Source: an uncultured Bacteroidota bacterium (GTDB taxonomy: Bacteria > Bacteroidota > Bacteroidia > Bacteroidales > F082). Taken from it: a DNA stretch of 37,113 nt. Location of the stretch: NCBI GenBank assembly GCA_913009685.1, contig CAJVXP010000022.1, forward strand, positions 1-37,113, written 5' to 3'. Within the stretch, counting starts at the first letter, position 1; every line of letters begins with the position of its first letter. The position numbers were made by a program, and so were the translations under genes. The notes beneath the pieces are model-generated. The model saw nothing but the letters and a program-made list of their open reading frames with translations, was not told the origin of the DNA and ran no database searches. Positions 19,898 to 37,113 of this stretch are shown here, one piece after another.

Positions 19898-21187
19898 TTA
19901 TTGCGTTATTATCTTTCCAGCGAGTACCGGTTCATCTTTCATTTCTATGCCATCGGGCATTACCGTATAAAACACATTCTTTTCAAGACCTTGCTGTTTG
20001 ATGATGACCGGAACGTAATGTTCGCCATAGCCCGTGGCAAAGCCACGCTCGTCAAATTGCTCTACCAGTACGGTCTGTTTCCTGCCGATGAAGGATCTCC
20101 GGTAGCCTGATTTCATCTCATCGGAGAGGTTGCGAATGATTTCCGAACGCCGGGTTTTTTCCTTTTCGGGAATCTGATCGGGCATGCGCTCTGCCCGCGT
20201 TCCGTGCCTGACGCTGTATTTAAAAGTGTGGATATGCCCGAATTGCAAACGTTTGGCCATGGTAACACTTTCCTGAAAATCCTCTTCTGTTTCACCCGGG
20301 AAGCCCACTATAATGTCGGTGGTGAGGTTGAATCCTGGATATCGCCGGCGCAGCTCGCCGGCCATATCTTCAAACAATCCGGCGGTGTACATGCGCCGCA
20401 TCTTCAGCAGGACATCCTCCGAACCGCTTTGCAGACAAAGATGCAAATGAGGTGTGAGCCGTGGATGGGCAAACAGCCGGAAAAAACTTTCGGTAAAACC
20501 ATCTGGTTCCATGGATGAAATACGCAAACGAAAATCGCCGGGAATATTAAGAATATTTTCTACCAATTGTTCAAAATCAGTGTTCTTATCCTGATATCGT
20601 CCGATATTGACTCCCGTGAGAACAACTTCTTTGTAGCCGAAGGCAACAACCTGTTTTATGTTTTCATAGACATCTTTTGCCGGGCGGCTAATGGCGCGAC
20701 CCCTCACCTTTGGAATGATGCAAAAAGTACAGAAATTGTTACAACCATCCTGGATTTTAATCAGGCTGCGGGTATGCAACGTGTTGTCGGCGGCATCATA
20801 ACCAAACAGATCCTTCTCAAACTGGTCGGGCGCAGCGATTTCTCCCCCAAAATGGGCTTCCACCAGTGAGGTGATGGCCGTTTTGTGGTCGTTGTCCACA
20901 ACGTAATCCACTTTGTCGCTTTTTTCTAACTGCTCTTTGAAGTTTGTAGCCATGCAGCCGGTAACAATTTTCAACGCTTTGGGATGCAGACGTTTCATTT
21001 GGTTCATCACCTGCTTCGACTTGTGATCGCTTTGGTTGGTAACGGTACAGGTATTCACCACATACACATCGGCTTCTTCACCGAAATCTACTACCTGATA
21101 GTTCATTTTGGCGAATTCGGATACCAGCGCATCGGTTTCAAACAGGTTGAGCCGGCAGCCGAGAGTTTTAAAAGCAATTTTTCTCAT
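19898..21187 (-). CDS. mtaB: tRNA t6A37 methylthiotransferase MtaB
   Basis: A 429-residue radical-SAM methylthiotransferase that turns t6A37 into ms2t6A37 in ANN-decoding tRNAs. The N-terminal UPF0004 domain carries Cys11 (TLGCRLNLFE), Cys47 (NTCTVT) and Cys78 (TGCMA), which hold the auxiliary Fe-S cluster. The radical-SAM cluster motif is CNNFCTFC (Cys149, 153, 156), followed by IIPKVRGRAISR. A short TRAM-like end completes it. The CRLN (rather than CQMN) motif separates it from MiaB. It lies 6 bp downstream of the related miaB, so the two methylthiotransferases of different tRNA targets share an operon. Confidence 0.93.
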   Translation of the reverse strand: MRKIAFKTLGCRLNLFETDALVSEFAKMNYQVVDFGEEADVYVVNTCTVTNQSDHKSKQVMNQMKRLHPKALKIVTGCMATNFKEQLEKSDKVDYVVDNDHKTAITSLVEAHFGGEIAAPDQFEKDLFGYDAADNTLHTRSLIKIQDGCNNFCTFCIIPKVRGRAISRPAKDVYENIKQVVAFGYKEVVLTGVNIGRYQDKNTDFEQLVENILNIPGDFRLRISSMEPDGFTESFFRLFAHPRLTPHLHLCLQSGSEDVLLKMRRMYTAGLFEDMAGELRRRYPGFNLTTDIIVGFPGETEEDFQESVTMAKRLQFGHIHTFKYSVRHGTRAERMPDQIPEKEKTRRSEIIRNLSDEMKSGYRRSFIGRKQTVLVEQFDERGFATGYGEHYVPVIIKQQGLEKNVFYTVMPDGIEMKDEPVLAGKIITQ

Positions 21188-29755: not shown

Positions 29756-30346
29756 CTACGGAAAAGTTAGTCCTTTGTAAACACTTGCCTGGGAAGGAGC
29801 ATATACCTGTCCCCCCATTCGCAACACTCCTCCATTTTCCAATGTGACCTGAATATCGGCACTGCCATCATTACTGATATTCATGGTGAAATAAGGACTG
29901 CTTCCACCAAATTTAGGTTGTATGTGAGCCGTTACGGTCATTGCCTGTTTGTTGTTTTTTCCCGGAAAAAACCGGTAATCTGTCAAAAAACCTTCGGCAG
30001 TAATACCGCCAACGCCGTTCCATCCCACCACACCCTGAAAACCGAACTGCAGGATAATTTTATTATCCTTGATGGCCACAAAATTAATATCGGGAGTAAC
30101 CGAATAAAAATGTCCATAGGGCCCGTATAACCGGGTGGCCTGAAACACAAACTGCTTGTTCTTAATCAGCTTGGCATAATATTGCCGGGAAGCCAACGAC
30201 TTCTTTATCCGCTCTTCTTTTTTCTTTTGTTTTTCCAGCTTACGTTGCTCCTTTTTGGTTAGCTGCTTGTTTTGTGCCATTCCGGAATTCGCCGTGAACA
30301 AGGTCAGGGCAAAAACCAAACTGAGGAAATAGATGAATTTTTTCAT
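29756..30346 (-). CDS. DUF4251 domain protein (second copy)
   Basis: A 196-residue exported protein. A signal peptide covers ~1-24 (MKKFIYFLSLVFALTLFTANSGMA). Next is a very charged segment, TKKEQRKLEKQKKKEERIKK (~30-49). The globular DUF4251 domain follows: QFVFQATRLYGP, VTPDINFVAIKDNKIILQFGF, GWNGVGGITAEG and FTMNISNDGSADIQV. The family is Bacteroidota-specific and uncharacterised; many members are lipoproteins or periplasmic. It is a paralogue of the gene at 30478-31065, 131 bp upstream, and likely transcribed with it since no -7 box was found in front. It converges with the LUD gene. Confidence 0.85.
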   Translation of the reverse strand: MKKFIYFLSLVFALTLFTANSGMAQNKQLTKKEQRKLEKQKKKEERIKKSLASRQYYAKLIKNKQFVFQATRLYGPYGHFYSVTPDINFVAIKDNKIILQFGFQGVVGWNGVGGITAEGFLTDYRFFPGKNNKQAMTVTAHIQPKFGGSSPYFTMNISNDGSADIQVTLENGGVLRMGGQVYAPSQASVYKGLTFP

Positions 30347-30477
30347 GGTATGTCTTTTAAACTAAAAACTTACCAAAACCATGCCAAAATGAGGAGAAGA
30401 ATGCTGTTCAGGTGGCCCAAAAAGTAAACGCTTCGCGGGAACAGTATTCCCCAATACAAAGCCATTTACTGTTGTTT

Positions 30478-31065
30478 TTAGAAAAGGCTTTGTCCCACGA
30501 AGATATTGGCCTTTTTCGGAGAAACTATTTGCCCGTAAACAACAAACGGAGGGCCACCAGCCGGCTGAACCATTAATTGCGCTGTTCCATCGTCGGAAAC
30601 ATTCAGGGAAATACCGGGTGGCAATCCCGGACCAATAAGGTACATGTTAGTACTCATGGAAAGATTGTTTTTCTTTTTTCCCAGATGAACCTGATAATTG
30701 GATAATGTCCCGCGAACAGTAATTCCTCCAACTCCGTTCCATCCAATAGCATTGTTGAAGCCAAACTGAAGAATAACTTTGTTTCCGTTTACGGACATGA
30801 AATTGATATCAGGAGACAAAACAAACGACTCTCCATGTGCACCTATTAGAAAGTCTGCCTGAAAAACAAAATATTTTTCTTTTAGAAGTTTCGTATAATA
30901 TTCCCGCGATATCGCCCGCTTCATGCTCCTCTCTTTCTTTTTTCGCAATCGTTCCAAATGATGTTTTTCCTTTTTTGTAAGTTCCTTACTTTGAGCATAG
31001 GCAACCTCGCCGAATAGTAATCCGGCTACGAGAAAGATGCTGATAAAATAAATTAGCTTTTTCAT
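30478..31065 (-). CDS. DUF4251 domain protein (first copy)
   Basis: A 195-residue paralogue of the next gene, with the same plan: signal peptide ~1-24 ending EVAYAQ, a basic charged segment (TKKEKHHLERLRKKKERSMK), then the DUF4251 domain with FVFQADFLIGA, LSPDINFMSVNGNKVILQFGF and GWNGVGGITVRG, and a C-terminal PAGGPPFVVYGQ. The paralogues are most alike in the charged segment and around GWNGVGGIT. A consensus -7 box lies at 31173-31180, ~108 bp before the start. The function is unknown; a periplasmic or outer-membrane location is inferred from the signal peptide. Confidence 0.85.
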   Translation of the reverse strand: MKKLIYFISIFLVAGLLFGEVAYAQSKELTKKEKHHLERLRKKKERSMKRAISREYYTKLLKEKYFVFQADFLIGAHGESFVLSPDINFMSVNGNKVILQFGFNNAIGWNGVGGITVRGTLSNYQVHLGKKKNNLSMSTNMYLIGPGLPPGISLNVSDDGTAQLMVQPAGGPPFVVYGQIVSPKKANIFVGQSLF

Positions 31066-31874: not shown

Positions 31875-33566
31875 CTAAGCAGACTCGTACCAATGATATG
31901 CATAAGGTTCGAGAAAGATTTTATCAGAATGCTCAACATCGCCAGTCATAAGATCTTTTACCCTTATGTTTTGGTAAAAATGAAAGATACGCGTCTTATC
32001 TGAAAAATTAAATACTGCCCAAAAACGTTTCTCCCCCTGCTTTTTTTGAATTACAATAACCTGGTCATCCTCGGTTTTTGTCTCAAACCTTAAGAATGGG
32101 GCAAACCATTTGTAAGAGCGTCTGATTTGTAATAGCTTTTTGTACTCGGTGAAAACAAGATTTCGCAAAGAACCTTCCTCAGCCAATACCTCAGCCAGCT
32201 TATCATAATTAAGTTTTGAACGATTTATCCTTCGCTTAATACCGCTCTTTTCAGCGGCTTCCAAATCGTTCTGTGTTCCCAGAAGGGAATGAATATATAT
32301 CCCGGGTAGTCCGGGTAAAGTGAGCATAAATGCCTGTGTCAGCATGAACTTTTGTGTTTTTAGCCGCTTTGAATCGTTCGGATTGGAAACAATGTTCAGG
32401 TAGGAACAGTTGAGTTCATAGGGAGAATGTGTTCCATCGGTATTACATTTATAAGAAACAAATCCGGAATTTGCTTTAGTCTGATGTTCAAGCATGCCTG
32501 TTTCTTCCTTCGTTAGGATATCTTTTACCGGCTGTAGTCCAATACCATCATGGCTGGCCGTAAAATTAAAATAACAGGCTTCTCCCGAAGGTAAGTCCAG
32601 TCCGGAAAGCCACTTACCAAGTTTTTGTACGTTGGAAGTTATAAGGCTAAAAGCTAACAATGGCGGTAAAGTAAAATTATAAACCAAGTGAGCTTCATTA
32701 TTCCCATTACCAAAATAAGAGATGTTATCTTTGTGAGGGACATTGGTTTCGGTAATAAACAAAATACCCGAAGTCAGGCTTTCAACGATTTTACGGTAAA
32801 GCTGAATAACCAAATGCGTCTCAGGAAGATGTAAACAGGTTGTCCCGAGACGTTTCCAAAGAAACCCTATGGCATCGAGCCGGATTAGGCGGGCGCCTTT
32901 TGAAATGTAAAAAAGCAACAGTTCCAGGATTGCCACAAAAACTCTCCCGTTTGCATAGTTTAAATCTACCTGATCTTCGCTGAAAGTAGTCCAAACAGAC
33001 TTTATTTCTCCGGATTTTGCAGGGTATTTGTGAACCAGGGGCAATGCTCTCGGGCGGAAGACTTGTTTTAACCGCTCGTCTTTCTTATCAACTTCAATAA
33101 AAAAATTTGCAAAATCAGATTTCCCGGCCAGAAAACCCTTAAACCAGTCAGAATCTTTCGACATATGATTGATAACAGCGTCAAACATTAAATGATATTT
33201 GGCCGACAGCCGTTCGATATGATCCCATGTTCCAAATTCAGGATTTACAGCATAATAATCTGTCACAGCAAATCCATCGTCAGACGAAAATGGAAAAAAC
33301 GGTAAAAGATGAATCGTATTAATAAGTTCATTAAGGTTTTCGCCCAGAAATTCATCCAATATTTCTAATGGAAATTGCCCCTCGCGGCGGATAGTATCGG
33401 CATACGTGATTAATACAACATCTTTTTCCGACAACTGTTTCTCATAATACGGAAGGGAAGACCGATATTTTTCAATCACCGCATCCACTTGGTTTTTAAC
33501 TTCGCCGGCCTTTTCTCCGTAAAGTTCTTTCAATCCTTCTAAAACGCATGATTCATCCATGTCCAT
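31875..33566 (-). CDS. GH13_18 phosphorylase, probable glucosylglycerate phosphorylase
   Basis: A 563-residue alpha-amylase-superfamily enzyme close to E. coli YcjM as I remember it. Shared stretches include DVVLITYAD (49-57), HLLPFFPFSSDDGFAVTDY (86-104), FRPRALPL (170-177) and TNVPHKDNISYFG (274-286). Predicted catalytic residues are nucleophile Asp231 (IRLDAIGF), acid/base Glu273 (ITETN) and Asp340 (ASHDGIG). YcjM splits glucosylglycerate with phosphate into glucose 1-phosphate and D-glycerate; sucrose phosphorylases are the main alternative, but their loops differ. It has no signal peptide and is cytoplasmic. Its ATG overlaps the symporter stop by 1 nt (TAATG), the last gene of the operon. 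Confidence 0.82.
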   Translation of the reverse strand: MDMDESCVLEGLKELYGEKAGEVKNQVDAVIEKYRSSLPYYEKQLSEKDVVLITYADTIRREGQFPLEILDEFLGENLNELINTIHLLPFFPFSSDDGFAVTDYYAVNPEFGTWDHIERLSAKYHLMFDAVINHMSKDSDWFKGFLAGKSDFANFFIEVDKKDERLKQVFRPRALPLVHKYPAKSGEIKSVWTTFSEDQVDLNYANGRVFVAILELLLFYISKGARLIRLDAIGFLWKRLGTTCLHLPETHLVIQLYRKIVESLTSGILFITETNVPHKDNISYFGNGNNEAHLVYNFTLPPLLAFSLITSNVQKLGKWLSGLDLPSGEACYFNFTASHDGIGLQPVKDILTKEETGMLEHQTKANSGFVSYKCNTDGTHSPYELNCSYLNIVSNPNDSKRLKTQKFMLTQAFMLTLPGLPGIYIHSLLGTQNDLEAAEKSGIKRRINRSKLNYDKLAEVLAEEGSLRNLVFTEYKKLLQIRRSYKWFAPFLRFETKTEDDQVIVIQKKQGEKRFWAVFNFSDKTRIFHFYQNIRVKDLMTGDVEHSDKIFLEPYAYHWYESA

Positions 33567-35152
33567 TAAAATATATAAGGTAAGGAAACTGAAAACAAAA
33601 CAATTACTACAAAATAAACTGCCAGTATCATATTTTCACGTGTCTTCCACTGGAACTTGTCAATGTGCAGAAGTTCCTTATGATAGTCTTTCCGTATTAA
33701 TGTGCTTAGTGATAAAGCCACAACTACCGTAACAATAGTACCGATTGCATTCCACCAGAACCAGAATAGCTCCGGTACAAAAAGCCAAAGGATAACATTC
33801 ACCAGTACGCCGGTAATAATCCCGACATTTACCCCAAAAGCGTGAGCACGTTTCGACAAAATGGCCAACAGGAAAGCCGCAAGAACAGGTCCGTAAAATA
33901 CGGAACCGATTTTATTGATGGCTTCAATAACTGTATCTGCAATCCCTCCTGCTACAAAGGCAAACAGGATACAGACAATACCCCAAAAAAGTGAGACGAA
34001 CCGCGAAACCCTGACATACTGCCGGTCGTCCATAGTCTTAAACCGCTTAATAAAATCTTCCACGGTAACAGCAGACAATGAATTAATAGTAGAGCTGAGA
34101 GACGACATTGCAGCAGACATGATAGCAACGAGAAGAATGCCAATTATGCCATTGGGAAGATATTTTATTATGAATACCGGTACCAATAAATCCGTACTGC
34201 TTTTCAGCGAAGTGTGCGCTAAAAAGATTTGATGCAGTGCTGCCTGGTAAGAAGGGTCCATAAAGTAAAGTGTCCCAAGCACCAGCCCCATGAAACTATA
34301 GATAAATGTTATGGGAAACCGGAACAGTCCGTTCACGGTCAGTAATTTACGGATTGTACCCGTATCTTTTGCAGACAACATACGCTGCATCTGTGTCTGG
34401 TCAGTGCCGTAATATGAAGTATATAAAAACAGACCACCAATAAGCATGGGCCAAAATCCAAAACCATCGTCATGAAACCCCATTTTACTAAAATTAACGG
34501 CCGTCAGTCTGCTCATATCCATGTGCGTAATAAATTGGTGCCATCCGCCTATCGCATATAAGCCAAAACCCAGACTCACCAAAATACCAACAAAAAGAAT
34601 GATCATTTGAATCATGTCGCCGTACACAACCGCTCGCATACCCCCCTGGAAAGAGTAGATTAAGGTAATAGCTCCAATGATAATAATGGTTTGCCAGAAC
34701 TGAATATTTAATACACTTTGCAGGATCAGCGCCACAGCATAAACCATAACACCTGTTCCGAAAGAACGGCTAATCTGAAATACAAAACTTATTAATAATC
34801 GGGAACTGGCATCAAAACGCTTCTCCAGATATTCGTAGATACTTACCACACCTGACTTGTACAAGGGCGGAACAATAACAACGACAACCAAAATCATGGC
34901 CAGGGGAACAGCAAACTCAAAAGTGAGCCACGACATCCCGCCACCCGGCCGGAGGCCAACAAAAGCCGGAGCAGAAATAAAACTGATGGCTGACAGCTGT
35001 GTTGCCATAACCGACAAACTCAACGGAAACCAACTCACCTCGCGGCCACCAAGAAAATAATCCTTTGATGATTTGTTGTCTTTAAAAAAATAGCCCAACC
35101 CCAGAAAACCTCCGAGGTAGGTAATAATGATGATATAATCTAACCAATTCAT
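33566..35152 (-). CDS. Sodium/solute symporter (SSS family)
   Basis: A 528-residue integral membrane protein with about 13 hydrophobic helices. SSS hallmarks include the first-helix GGREVSWFPLSLSVMATQLS near residue 36, GGMRAVVYGDMIQ near 168, the TSYYGTDQTQMQRMLSAKD segment near 245, and SAAMSSLSSTINSLSAVTVED near 345. Members use the sodium gradient to import sugars, amino acids or similar solutes. It overlaps the upstream GH63 gene by 4 nt (ATGA) and the downstream GH13 gene by 1 nt, so its substrate is probably the glycoside handled by both; glucosylglycerate or mannosylglycerate is my inference. Confidence 0.92.
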   Translation of the reverse strand: MNWLDYIIIITYLGGFLGLGYFFKDNKSSKDYFLGGREVSWFPLSLSVMATQLSAISFISAPAFVGLRPGGGMSWLTFEFAVPLAMILVVVVIVPPLYKSGVVSIYEYLEKRFDASSRLLISFVFQISRSFGTGVMVYAVALILQSVLNIQFWQTIIIIGAITLIYSFQGGMRAVVYGDMIQMIILFVGILVSLGFGLYAIGGWHQFITHMDMSRLTAVNFSKMGFHDDGFGFWPMLIGGLFLYTSYYGTDQTQMQRMLSAKDTGTIRKLLTVNGLFRFPITFIYSFMGLVLGTLYFMDPSYQAALHQIFLAHTSLKSSTDLLVPVFIIKYLPNGIIGILLVAIMSAAMSSLSSTINSLSAVTVEDFIKRFKTMDDRQYVRVSRFVSLFWGIVCILFAFVAGGIADTVIEAINKIGSVFYGPVLAAFLLAILSKRAHAFGVNVGIITGVLVNVILWLFVPELFWFWWNAIGTIVTVVVALSLSTLIRKDYHKELLHIDKFQWKTRENMILAVYFVVIVLFSVSLPYIF

Positions 35153-36468
35153 AGTTTATCGTTCAATAAATCAATAATTAGGGCAGCGGTCCATGAAAAT
35201 TGTTGCCCCCCATAACCAAACTTTTGTTTTTGTGATTTTTTCTTATCCGGCTCAAAATACTCAAAAAAGCCCTGCTCGCGAACCATCTGCAATGTATCTT
35301 CTTTTATTTTGCTTGCCCAGGCACTCTCTCCATAAATTTTTAAGCCCTCGTAAATCAACCAGTTCATATTCGTCCAAGCCGGGCCCCGCCAATAACGCTG
35401 CGACTCGAAACGGTCATTCTCCGGATCAAAAGAAGGTGTAAAAAAATACTTTCCATCCTGGGAAAACCTTTCCAGCGCAGTGAGCATCTTTTTCATCTGT
35501 TGCTGCGATGGTATTCCCGCAAACAGCGGAGCAAAACCCGAAGATGTAAGGCCATCAAGCCACCTGCCGCTTCTCAAATCAAAATGACGGTACATACCGG
35601 CATCGTTATCAAAAAGTTTTTTATTAAAAGCCGAAACGGATTTCTTATTCCATCTTTCCAATTGTTTTACATCCTGTGAAAAACCAAACTGTTCACCAAG
35701 ACGAATCAGACTTTTGTTGGATGCAACCAACATGCTGTTAAACAAAGGATCCTGCACAAGAAAAGGAGATTTTTCGGCAATTGTCTTATCGCTGTAATGC
35801 CATTTTTTAAACAAGTCGATAAGATACAAATAGTAGTCATATTCCCATTTTGATGGTCGTTGCTCTTCTTTGACAACCTGAGTGTCTTTGCGCGAAAAGT
35901 TGTACTCCGGCACCTCAAACGAATTCCAGATTTCATCCCAAACGGGTGAATTATCCGTGCCTGATTCCCAGTTATGTTGAATGTAAACAAGGCCTTCATG
36001 AGAGGGATCACGGTTTTCATACAGGTATTCATGCTGAGCCATTACTTTCGGGAAAAGTTTTTTCACAAAATCCTGAACTTCGGGAAGAAATTTTCTCTTG
36101 CTCAAAATTTTTTCCAGAACCCAACCCTCTACAGGAGGTTGGGTGAGTGTAGTTGTTTCATAGTTCAGATTGGCATTTTCTGAAAGTGAAGAGTGATAAA
36201 AGTCTGCGTTAGGAAAGTAATTTTCCTTTTCAGCCGGAGAATGAAAAATAATATGCGGAACAAAACCGTTAGTCCATTGGACATTGAATAGCGATTCGAG
36301 TTCCGCCATAGCTTTTTGGAAATCAAAATGGCTGAAACCGAGAGCGATAAAACCGGAGTCCCATTTCCACTGAAACGGATAAATTCCTGCCCCTGGAATA
36401 GTGTAACCTTGCCTTCTGTTGGCCAGCAAAATTTGCCGGGCGCGTTTTAACAATAGGATATTATCCAT
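35149..36468 (-). CDS. GH63 glycosidase, probable glucosyl/mannosylglycerate hydrolase
   Basis: A 439-residue (alpha/alpha)6-barrel glycosidase. Motifs recall the short bacterial GH63 enzymes MgH (Thermus) and GgH (Mycobacterium): YPFQWKWDSGF (30-40), IQHNWESGTDNSPVWDEIW (163-181, with candidate general acid Asp172), RYWRGPAWTNMNWLIYEG (358-375), and the end FFEYFEP (401-407, candidate base Glu403) with FSWTAALIIDLL. Those enzymes split mannosyl- or glucosylglycerate to hexose and glycerate; it lacks the N-terminal domain of eukaryotic processing glucosidase. No signal peptide, so cytoplasmic. It is the first gene of the overlapping operon with the symporter and GH13 phosphorylase. No -7 box was seen upstream. 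Confidence 0.8.
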   Translation of the reverse strand: MDNILLLKRARQILLANRRQGYTIPGAGIYPFQWKWDSGFIALGFSHFDFQKAMAELESLFNVQWTNGFVPHIIFHSPAEKENYFPNADFYHSSLSENANLNYETTTLTQPPVEGWVLEKILSKRKFLPEVQDFVKKLFPKVMAQHEYLYENRDPSHEGLVYIQHNWESGTDNSPVWDEIWNSFEVPEYNFSRKDTQVVKEEQRPSKWEYDYYLYLIDLFKKWHYSDKTIAEKSPFLVQDPLFNSMLVASNKSLIRLGEQFGFSQDVKQLERWNKKSVSAFNKKLFDNDAGMYRHFDLRSGRWLDGLTSSGFAPLFAGIPSQQQMKKMLTALERFSQDGKYFFTPSFDPENDRFESQRYWRGPAWTNMNWLIYEGLKIYGESAWASKIKEDTLQMVREQGFFEYFEPDKKKSQKQKFGYGGQQFSWTAALIIDLLNDKL

Positions 36469-36544: not shown

Positions 36545-36597
36545 ACATTAAGGAACCAAAATTATTATTCTATGAAAAATGAAACTATCTGTCTTAT

Positions 36598-37113
36598 TTA
36601 TAAATTAAATGTTGCACGTAAAAAAACACGTCTTGGCAGAATAGGGCGACCTACGAAATATTCGGCAATGGTTTGATTGTTACCCAGACGTGGAGAGCCT
36701 TCCGTTACACCGGCATTGTTGAGCAAGTTAAAGATGGAGAGACCTAAACGCCATGTTTTGCTGGTATGTTTTCCTAAAGGAAAGGTATATCCGGCATCTA
36801 ACCGAACAATATTAATAGGATCTAACAAGATGGCGTTGTTGTCACTTGTGTATTTTTTACCCATATAATTGTTAGAAAGGTTGGCATCCCATTTTCCATT
36901 GTCGTATGAAATTCCCAGCATCGACAAAAGTCGCGGCTGTCTTCTCAACCAGTTTCCTACATATTCAGGATGACCTTCGTATAAATCATAACGATGTTTC
37001 TGATAAGTGAAGTTACCATAAAAGTTCAGGTTCTTTACAAGATTCCAGTTCCAGGTCAATTCTGTTCCAAATGTGGAAGTTCCCACAAGATTAACATCTT
37101 CAATTATGCCTCC
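36598..37113 (-). CDS. TonB-dependent receptor, C-terminal part (partial, 5' end outside window)
   Basis: The frame is open from the right window edge to a stop at 36600-36598, giving 171 residues. The alternating strands TWNWNLVKNLNFYGNFTYQK, YVGNWLRRQPRLLSMLGISY, RLDAGYTFPLG and LGLSIFNLLNN, and the C-terminal RRVFLRATFNL, are those of the last beta-barrel strands of an outer-membrane TonB-dependent receptor. Such receptors import ligands too large or scarce for porins, using energy from TonB. It lies 129 bp upstream of the GH63 operon on the same strand. A receptor for a glycoside feeding this operon is plausible, but the plug and ligand-binding loops are out of view. Confidence 0.85.
   Translation of the reverse strand, partial: GGIIEDVNLVGTSTFGTELTWNWNLVKNLNFYGNFTYQKHRYDLYEGHPEYVGNWLRRQPRLLSMLGISYDNGKWDANLSNNYMGKKYTSDNNAILLDPINIVRLDAGYTFPLGKHTSKTWRLGLSIFNLLNNAGVTEGSPRLGNNQTIAEYFVGRPILPRRVFLRATFNL

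Follow-up and report, generated by a model that had tools for sequence, protein, structure and literature searches.

Why should one bacterium carry, side by side, a hydrolase and a phosphorylase that appear to act on the same class of small solute? The question is raised by a 37,113-nucleotide contig from an uncultured Bacteroidota bacterium (Bacteroidales, F082; GenBank assembly GCA_913009685.1, contig CAJVXP010000022.1), analysed here over its whole length and referred to as the window. An earlier reading of the letters alone (the sequence-only reading) had proposed that three genes overlapping end to start form an operon for the use of glycosylglycerates. The open reading frames (ORFs) and both overlaps were found as described, the hydrolase/symporter junction reading ..CTATGAATT.. 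(an ATGA overlap) and the symporter/phosphorylase junction ..TTTTAATGG.. (a TAATG overlap). The three genes do adjoin; what did not stand is the idea that they make up the unit, since they belong to a larger locus comprising a LacI regulator, a TonB-dependent receptor (TBDR), the hydrolase, a sodium/solute symporter (SSS), the phosphorylase and a glycerate kinase. The evidence presented below indicates that this is probably a LacI-controlled locus for scavenging alpha-glycosylglycerates, in which the hydrolase would serve the mannosyl (and also the glucosyl) form while the phosphorylase diverts the glucosyl form. The features concerned are:

31875..33566, minus strand: GH13_18 2-O-alpha-glucosylglycerate phosphorylase (GGaP), 563 aa
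33566..35152, minus strand: SSS, the predicted inner-membrane importer, 528 aa
35149..36468, minus strand: GH63 mannosyl-/glucosylglycerate hydrolase (MgH/GgH-like), 439 aa
36511..36546, minus strand: 15-bp hairpin in the receptor-hydrolase gap, terminator-like in sister genomes
36598..37113, minus strand: TBDR, C-terminal 171 aa, cut by the contig end

The window is an entire contig of 37113 bases, and its end at position 37113 falls within the TBDR, the fourth gene in the same direction; the remainder of the receptor, the glycerate kinase and the LacI gene, if any, therefore lie outside it. A Pfam scan of the 171-aa TBDR fragment alone gave no match. In the sister genome G002 the receptor is 885 aa long, with carboxypeptidase-regulatory-like and plug domains, and the fragment aligns with its residues 715-885 at 94% identity.

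The GH13 protein was supported by signatures and homology as a glucosylglycerate phosphorylase. It matches the alpha-amylase family PF00128 (93.1 bits, Pfam), is 41% identical to E. coli YcjM across 555 positions, and falls in one tree with YcjM (a tree that held no sucrose phosphorylase). The motif (T/S)ETN at the acid/base residue and a Glu in loop A have been described as the diagnostic marks of GGaP (PMC7178133), and the same two marks have been used for GGaP annotation by another group (PMC10608839). Both are present in the window protein, which carries TETN at 272-275 (FITETNVPHKDN, FITETN) and, in loop A, the stretch DGTHSPYELN with Glu replacing Gln (SPYE); residues D231, E273 and D340 are invariant in a 13-row alignment (A2). 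Against the NCBIfam sucrose phosphorylase model TIGR03852 the protein scored 229.5 bits, below the 334.4 cut-off, and when its sequence was searched against the PDB, sucrose and glucosylglycerol phosphorylases stayed at or below 180 bits. Sucrose phosphorylase and amylosucrase were dropped as identities in view of these lower scores and of the GGaP motifs. The scores and motifs thus speak against a sucrose phosphorylase, and the assignment of the protein in the sequence-only reading as a YcjM-like enzyme can be kept.

The hydrolase matches PF22422 (MGH1-like; 312.5 bits, Pfam), and its nearest solved relatives, by sequence and by fold, are the Thermus MgH and the mycobacterial GgH. The structural model, built from 12 sequences, had a mean pLDDT of 80, with weak stretches at 66-72, 92-105 and 412-415. 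When it was used as a Foldseek query, the Thermus MgH entries 4wva/4wvc ranked top by E-value (TM by query 0.86-0.87), followed by most chains of the mycobacterial enzyme MhGgH with slightly higher TM values (up to 0.89). Nineteen catalytic and substrate-contact residues of MhGgH have been described (PMC6608630). Eighteen of these positions are identical in the hydrolase (MhGgH numbering, transferred by eye from the alignment), including both catalytic residues (Asp182/Glu419) and all of the glycerate-contacting Tyr36, Trp40, Tyr88, Arg216 and Tyr375. Gln434 of MhGgH is replaced by Phe in the hydrolase and in all 43 rows compared, a plasmid homologue of R. radiotolerans among them, as it is in Thermus MgH; this difference carries little weight, because the PDB chain 6g3n ('Mycobacterial hydrolase') also has Phe at 434. 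According to PMC6608630, MhGgH is almost tenfold more efficient on glucosylglycerate than on mannosylglycerate and did not hydrolyse glucosylglycerol or glucosylglycolate, while Thermus MgH acts similarly on both glycerates; for the latter reason the enzyme is called here MgH/GgH-type, a name that commits to neither sugar. A GH63 processing glucosidase or a trehalase was dropped as an identity, the matches being much weaker both in Pfam and in Foldseek, and the protein lies far closer to MgH/GgH than to YgjK or to oligosaccharide glucosidases. Enzymes of this type are easily missed: in the 60 plasmid rows listed, any product name given for the hydrolase match is either 'hypothetical protein' or a trehalase label ('trehalase family glycosidase', 'neutral trehalase'), in one case alongside that of a neighbouring ABC gene.

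The dedicated importer that had also been proposed is there: the symporter scored over the curated cut-offs both for PF00474 SSF (152.8 vs 22.8 bits) and for TIGR00813 (231 vs 184 bits). Among solved structures its sequence comes closest to iodide and monocarboxylate transporters, followed by multivitamin and sodium/glucose transporters, a set that would suit an anionic glycoside as cargo and proves nothing about it.

The remainder of the locus is visible in the sister genomes. The order in G002 is glycerate kinase (+), LacI (-), TBDR (+), hydrolase, SSS and GGaP (+), and G001 has the same gene order spread over two contigs; LacI, TBDR and kinase are thus linked to hydrolase and SSS in both, whereas the window shows this linkage no further than the TBDR in which its contig ends. 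The three-gene order hydrolase-SSS-GGaP recurs, more than chance would explain, in G002, G001 (over two contigs), G335, Lutibacter sp. B1 and a Flavobacteriaceae metagenome-assembled genome (MAG). Of 582 hydrolase loci confirmed in a scan of named genomes, the 80 best matches were then compared; nearly all have flavobacterial names (through the alignment used, the set leans to Flavobacteriaceae). A core arranged as LacI // TBDR-hydrolase-SSS-glycerate kinase is common among these 80 loci, 78 of them having SSS, 73 glycerate kinase, 59 TBDR and 57 LacI; gene absences are upper estimates, because some contigs end inside the locus. GGaP was found in three (G002, Lutibacter sp. B1 and the Flavobacteriaceae MAG), and is therefore an accessory gene next to SSS (78/80) and kinase (73/80). 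The pairing of hydrolase, phosphorylase and transporter had been called unusual for a Bacteroidota; this holds for GGaP, which is uncommon, but in marine Bacteroidota it is nothing out of the ordinary for the hydrolase to be accompanied by a symporter. Gene content and order, homology, active-site residues and the conserved architecture of the locus are all matters of direct observation.

Downstream of the core, 41 unlabelled ORFs were counted in 30 loci, and ten picked by eye were scanned against Pfam: seven matched phosphomannose isomerase, one an acetyltransferase, one an LD-carboxypeptidase and one a GntP permease. In seven of the 80 loci such an isomerase gene comes next after the kinase (five belong to type I and two to the PF01050 cupin kind), and the release of mannose that they suggest fits mannosylglycerate as the core substrate. 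The GntP-family permease (L149:12991-14316) stands directly behind SSS, in the usual place of glycerate kinase. An ORF of 197-210 aa directly follows the hydrolase in 14 of the 80 core loci (L079, L096, L097, L103, L105, L108, L110, L111, L116, L117, L122, L125, L127 and L131); the one from L103 that was scanned and one ORF from G142 matched the GNAT acetyltransferase family. The entire core locus also occurs on Emticicia oligotrophica plasmid pEMTOL04 (L170), with sulfatase and recombinase genes within the 17 kb shown, a plasmid setting that may help it to move.

The trees indicate how the accessory gene relates to the core. The seven GGaPs that adjoin an SSS form one clade (support 100/99, and 100/100 with two more rows), separate from the other 21 sampled Bacteroidota GGaPs; the GGaP fragments of G011 were left out of this tree, as was the split hydrolase of G001 from the hydrolase trees. 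The hydrolase and symporter trees were built on sequences chosen by hand, from 31 of the 80 named loci and some further rows, among which long branches were flagged by the program, and the hydrolase tree was rebuilt with the Meiothermus row and three other long rows removed. The symporters of six GGaP carriers did not form one clade: starred branches forced four changes of the label 'has GGaP', also when four long rows were taken out, and the approximately unbiased (AU) test rejected a single clade (p 0.0016). In the best hydrolase tree the five carriers are split by two changes, both forced by starred branches, and a single clade was not rejected by the AU test (p 0.058); both AU tests were applied with the first trees already known. 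Since the GGaPs form one clade and the carrier symporters do not, GGaP has in part had a different history from at least the symporter. Movement of the module between standing loci, frequent loss, or exchange of symporters would each be compatible with the trees, which do not tell them apart.

The pairing of hydrolase and GGaP is not confined to Bacteroidota, because on plasmid pMtWR-220 of Meiothermus taiwanensis a LacI gene and four genes for an ABC importer are followed in a row by the hydrolase and GGaP; uniqueness to Bacteroidota was accordingly dropped. By tree this pairing is independent, the Meiothermus GGaP lying outside the Bacteroidota locus clade. Among the plasmid matches listed (60 of 108 hydrolase records and 60 of 76 GGaP records), M. 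taiwanensis alone appeared in both sets. A Bacteroidota GGaP that is also outside the locus clade (L069, G036:C191, 769-7617) lies downstream of genes weakly similar to mannosylglucosylglycerate synthase and to NF010496, a setting that is perhaps biosynthetic.

Of 395 genomes sampled across the phylum, 19 gave a match to the hydrolase (E 1e-30) and 22 a match to GGaP (E 1e-60). Four had both, close together in G000 and G335 and on separate contigs in G242 and G325. The genus was sampled with 12 genomes, that of the window included. Three contained the hydrolase and four a full-length GGaP, with fragments in a fifth. The single-contig genome G005 gave no hydrolase or SSS match and a best GH13 match of 31%, and in G008 the end of an SSS alone precedes GGaP, the hydrolase finding no match in that assembly. 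The fragments of the fifth genome (G011:C157:1-348 and G011:C63:25595-25861) partly overlap, lie at contig ends and include one with an internal TAA; they represent either two GGaP copies or an assembly break. At 29756-31065 the window has two adjoining DUF4251 genes, whose relatives stand beside FtsH-LUD or PepE in genus members with or without the locus. In G001, G011 and the window, no more than one gene separates GGaP from a DUF4251 pair, and in the window and G002 GGaP adjoins a cupin gene. The flank genes RsfS-FtsH-LUD and DUF4251 genes occur in G003, G004 and G005, and DUF4251-PepE in G006 and G007, as in G001; no locus genes were present within the flank stretches inspected in G003-G007.

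Control by LacI is suggested by a palindrome, GCAAACGTTTGC, which resembles general LacI/PurR-type operators. If one mismatch is allowed, it occurs in 53 of 56 LacI//TBDR gaps and in none of 1120 mononucleotide shuffles (the palindrome was first noticed in some of the loci later scored); G001 has it with one mismatch and G002 with two. It is predicted to be the LacI operator. A one-mismatch site also lies near window position 20245. An operator within the receptor-hydrolase gap was considered and dropped, the best site there having four mismatches. What this gap does contain is the 15-bp hairpin: the surrounding 138 nt give a more stable fold than 200 of 200 shuffles (z -3.6), and G002 and G001 have a similar hairpin with a T run after it. 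The window hairpin has no T run, and was not among the matches of the window terminator scan. Its effect may be to keep the enzymes at a lower level of expression than the receptor. Neither sigma-70 promoters nor standard terminators were more frequent in the window than in shuffles. Before the hairpin, at 36554-36565 (minus strand), stands ATAATTTTGGTT, which is shared with G002 and G001; it contains TAATTTTG, similar to the Bacteroidota -7 promoter element TAnnTTTG.

From all this we infer substrates, transport, direction of flux and regulation. The TBDR would admit the anionic solute through the outer membrane, and its uptake into the cytoplasm, together with sodium, would fall to the SSS; there the GH63 enzyme would hydrolyse mannosylglycerate (and glucosylglycerate) to hexose and D-glycerate. 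The accessory GGaP would phosphorolyse glucosylglycerate to glucose 1-phosphate and D-glycerate, sparing the ATP otherwise used on glucose, and the glycerate kinase (seen in sister genomes, and beyond this contig end if present) would pass glycerate to glycolysis.

Several results weigh against this scavenging scheme. The hydrolase scored 337.2 bits with NF047898, the NCBIfam glucosylglycerate hydrolase equivalog, which has a cut-off of 550; by this score it is a relative of the equivalog and not the equivalog itself. In the assembly to which the window belongs (88% complete), no glycerate kinase was found. Within the genus sample SSS was found in 4 of 12 genomes, and the locus is absent from most members searched. 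Glycosyltransferases below the cut-off of NF010496, presumably the glucosyl-3-phosphoglycerate synthase, are present in every genome searched (best 73 vs 262 bits), so that the cells may make the solute themselves with an unrecognised enzyme. None of the seven loci with phosphomannose isomerase carries GGaP and none is in this genus, a non-overlap that, with 7 and 3 of 80, is no statistical exclusion. Lastly, no division of labour can be read from the proteins, because MgH-type enzymes can hydrolyse both sugars. The suggestion made at the outset, that the hydrolase handles the mannosyl form and the phosphorylase the glucosyl form, consequently finds indirect support in the isomerase genes of related loci lacking GGaP, but none in the sequences of the two enzymes.

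The alternative that survives best, and that is nevertheless considered unlikely, is that glucosylglycerate alone is imported, hydrolase and GGaP being two routes for its use under different phosphate or energy states. The reported preference of MhGgH for this solute, the strictness of GGaP for it described in PMC11009771, and the Meiothermus plasmid, where the same two enzymes are paired with one importer, would all agree with this. However, GGaP was not seen in 77 of the 80 core loci (a few contigs end early), the isomerase genes point to mannose, and at position 434 the hydrolase has the Phe of Thermus MgH, the enzyme reported as similarly active on both solutes. It is improbable that imported mannosylglycerate is hydrolysed while GGaP works in the synthetic direction, from the glycerate set free and glucose 1-phosphate to glucosylglycerate as the cell's own osmoprotectant; this scheme is suggested because in G002 and G001, the two sister genomes whose contigs show enough of the surroundings, GGaP occupies the place behind SSS from which the kinase has been displaced, and no synthase for either solute was recognised in carriers. 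A role in recycling self-made glucosyl- or mannosylglycerate, with transport secondary, was dropped as very improbable. GGaP has been proposed to regulate intracellular glucosylglycerate in producers (PMC7178133), but mannosyl-3-phosphoglycerate synthase (PF09488) found no match in five of five carrier genomes (the Thermus control was positive), NF010496 no match over its cut-off in six of six genomes, five of them carriers, and the core is linked to an outer-membrane receptor and a symporter. That the substrate is an alpha-glucoside or alpha-mannoside of some small acid other than glycerate is hardly to be expected: the literature examined gave no reported activity for any member of the locus type, but a kinase for glycerate accompanies most loci, the glycerate-contacting residues of MhGgH are kept, and MhGgH is inactive on the two other glucosides named above.

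Scavenging of alpha-glycosylglycerates would place the locus among a set of functions that, going by the literature examined, is little tested, namely the uptake and splitting of small anionic solutes by marine Bacteroidota. Mannosylglycerate, which we take to be the same compound as digeneaside, is a compatible solute of red algae. Glucosylglycerate is reported to be a major compatible solute of Prochlorococcus (PMC11631117). The comparison yields a candidate importer pair (TBDR and SSS) and a regulator for which an operator is predicted. As some core loci have the phosphorylase and others lack it, they constitute a natural experiment, by which the proposed substrate split becomes directly testable.

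Among known systems, genes for digeneaside degradation have been reported in Zobellia galactanivorans, with homologues in Maribacter, and digeneaside is among the substrates that flavobacterial loci have been suggested to act on (PMC8072126, PMC6298971). In the present comparison the Zobellia loci (L077 and L091, from two other species) and seven Maribacter records (L075, L080, L081, L083, L086, L087 and L096) have LacI // TBDR-hydrolase-SSS-glycerate kinase and no GGaP, and are probably of the published type. For a hydrolase and GGaP paired in one locus, no description was found in the titles and abstract openings searched, a scope that leaves out most subscription journals. The ycj cluster of E. 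coli K-12 resembles the locus in having a GGaP (YcjM, 41% identical) with importer genes of its own, but its importer is of the ABC type, it includes kojibiose phosphorylase and dehydrogenase genes, and no GH63 hydrolase, SSS or TBDR is annotated in the stretch shown. Plasmid pMtWR-220 of Meiothermus comes closer, with LacI, a dedicated importer, GH63 hydrolase and a GGaP carrying TETN and PYE in a row; it differs in that an ABC importer replaces TBDR and SSS and in the separate position of its GGaP, and its enzymes are annotated merely as trehalase family glycosidase and sugar phosphorylase. MhGgH and Thermus MgH share the fold of the window hydrolase, and MhGgH nearly all of its contact and catalytic positions (18/19), whereas the role described for MhGgH is recovery from nitrogen starvation on stored solute (PMC6608630), and the window enzyme falls under the equivalog cut-off. 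Set beside these systems, the locus is a real and coherent catabolic locus, mostly of a known kind with an uncommon enzyme added, and not a new type of system.

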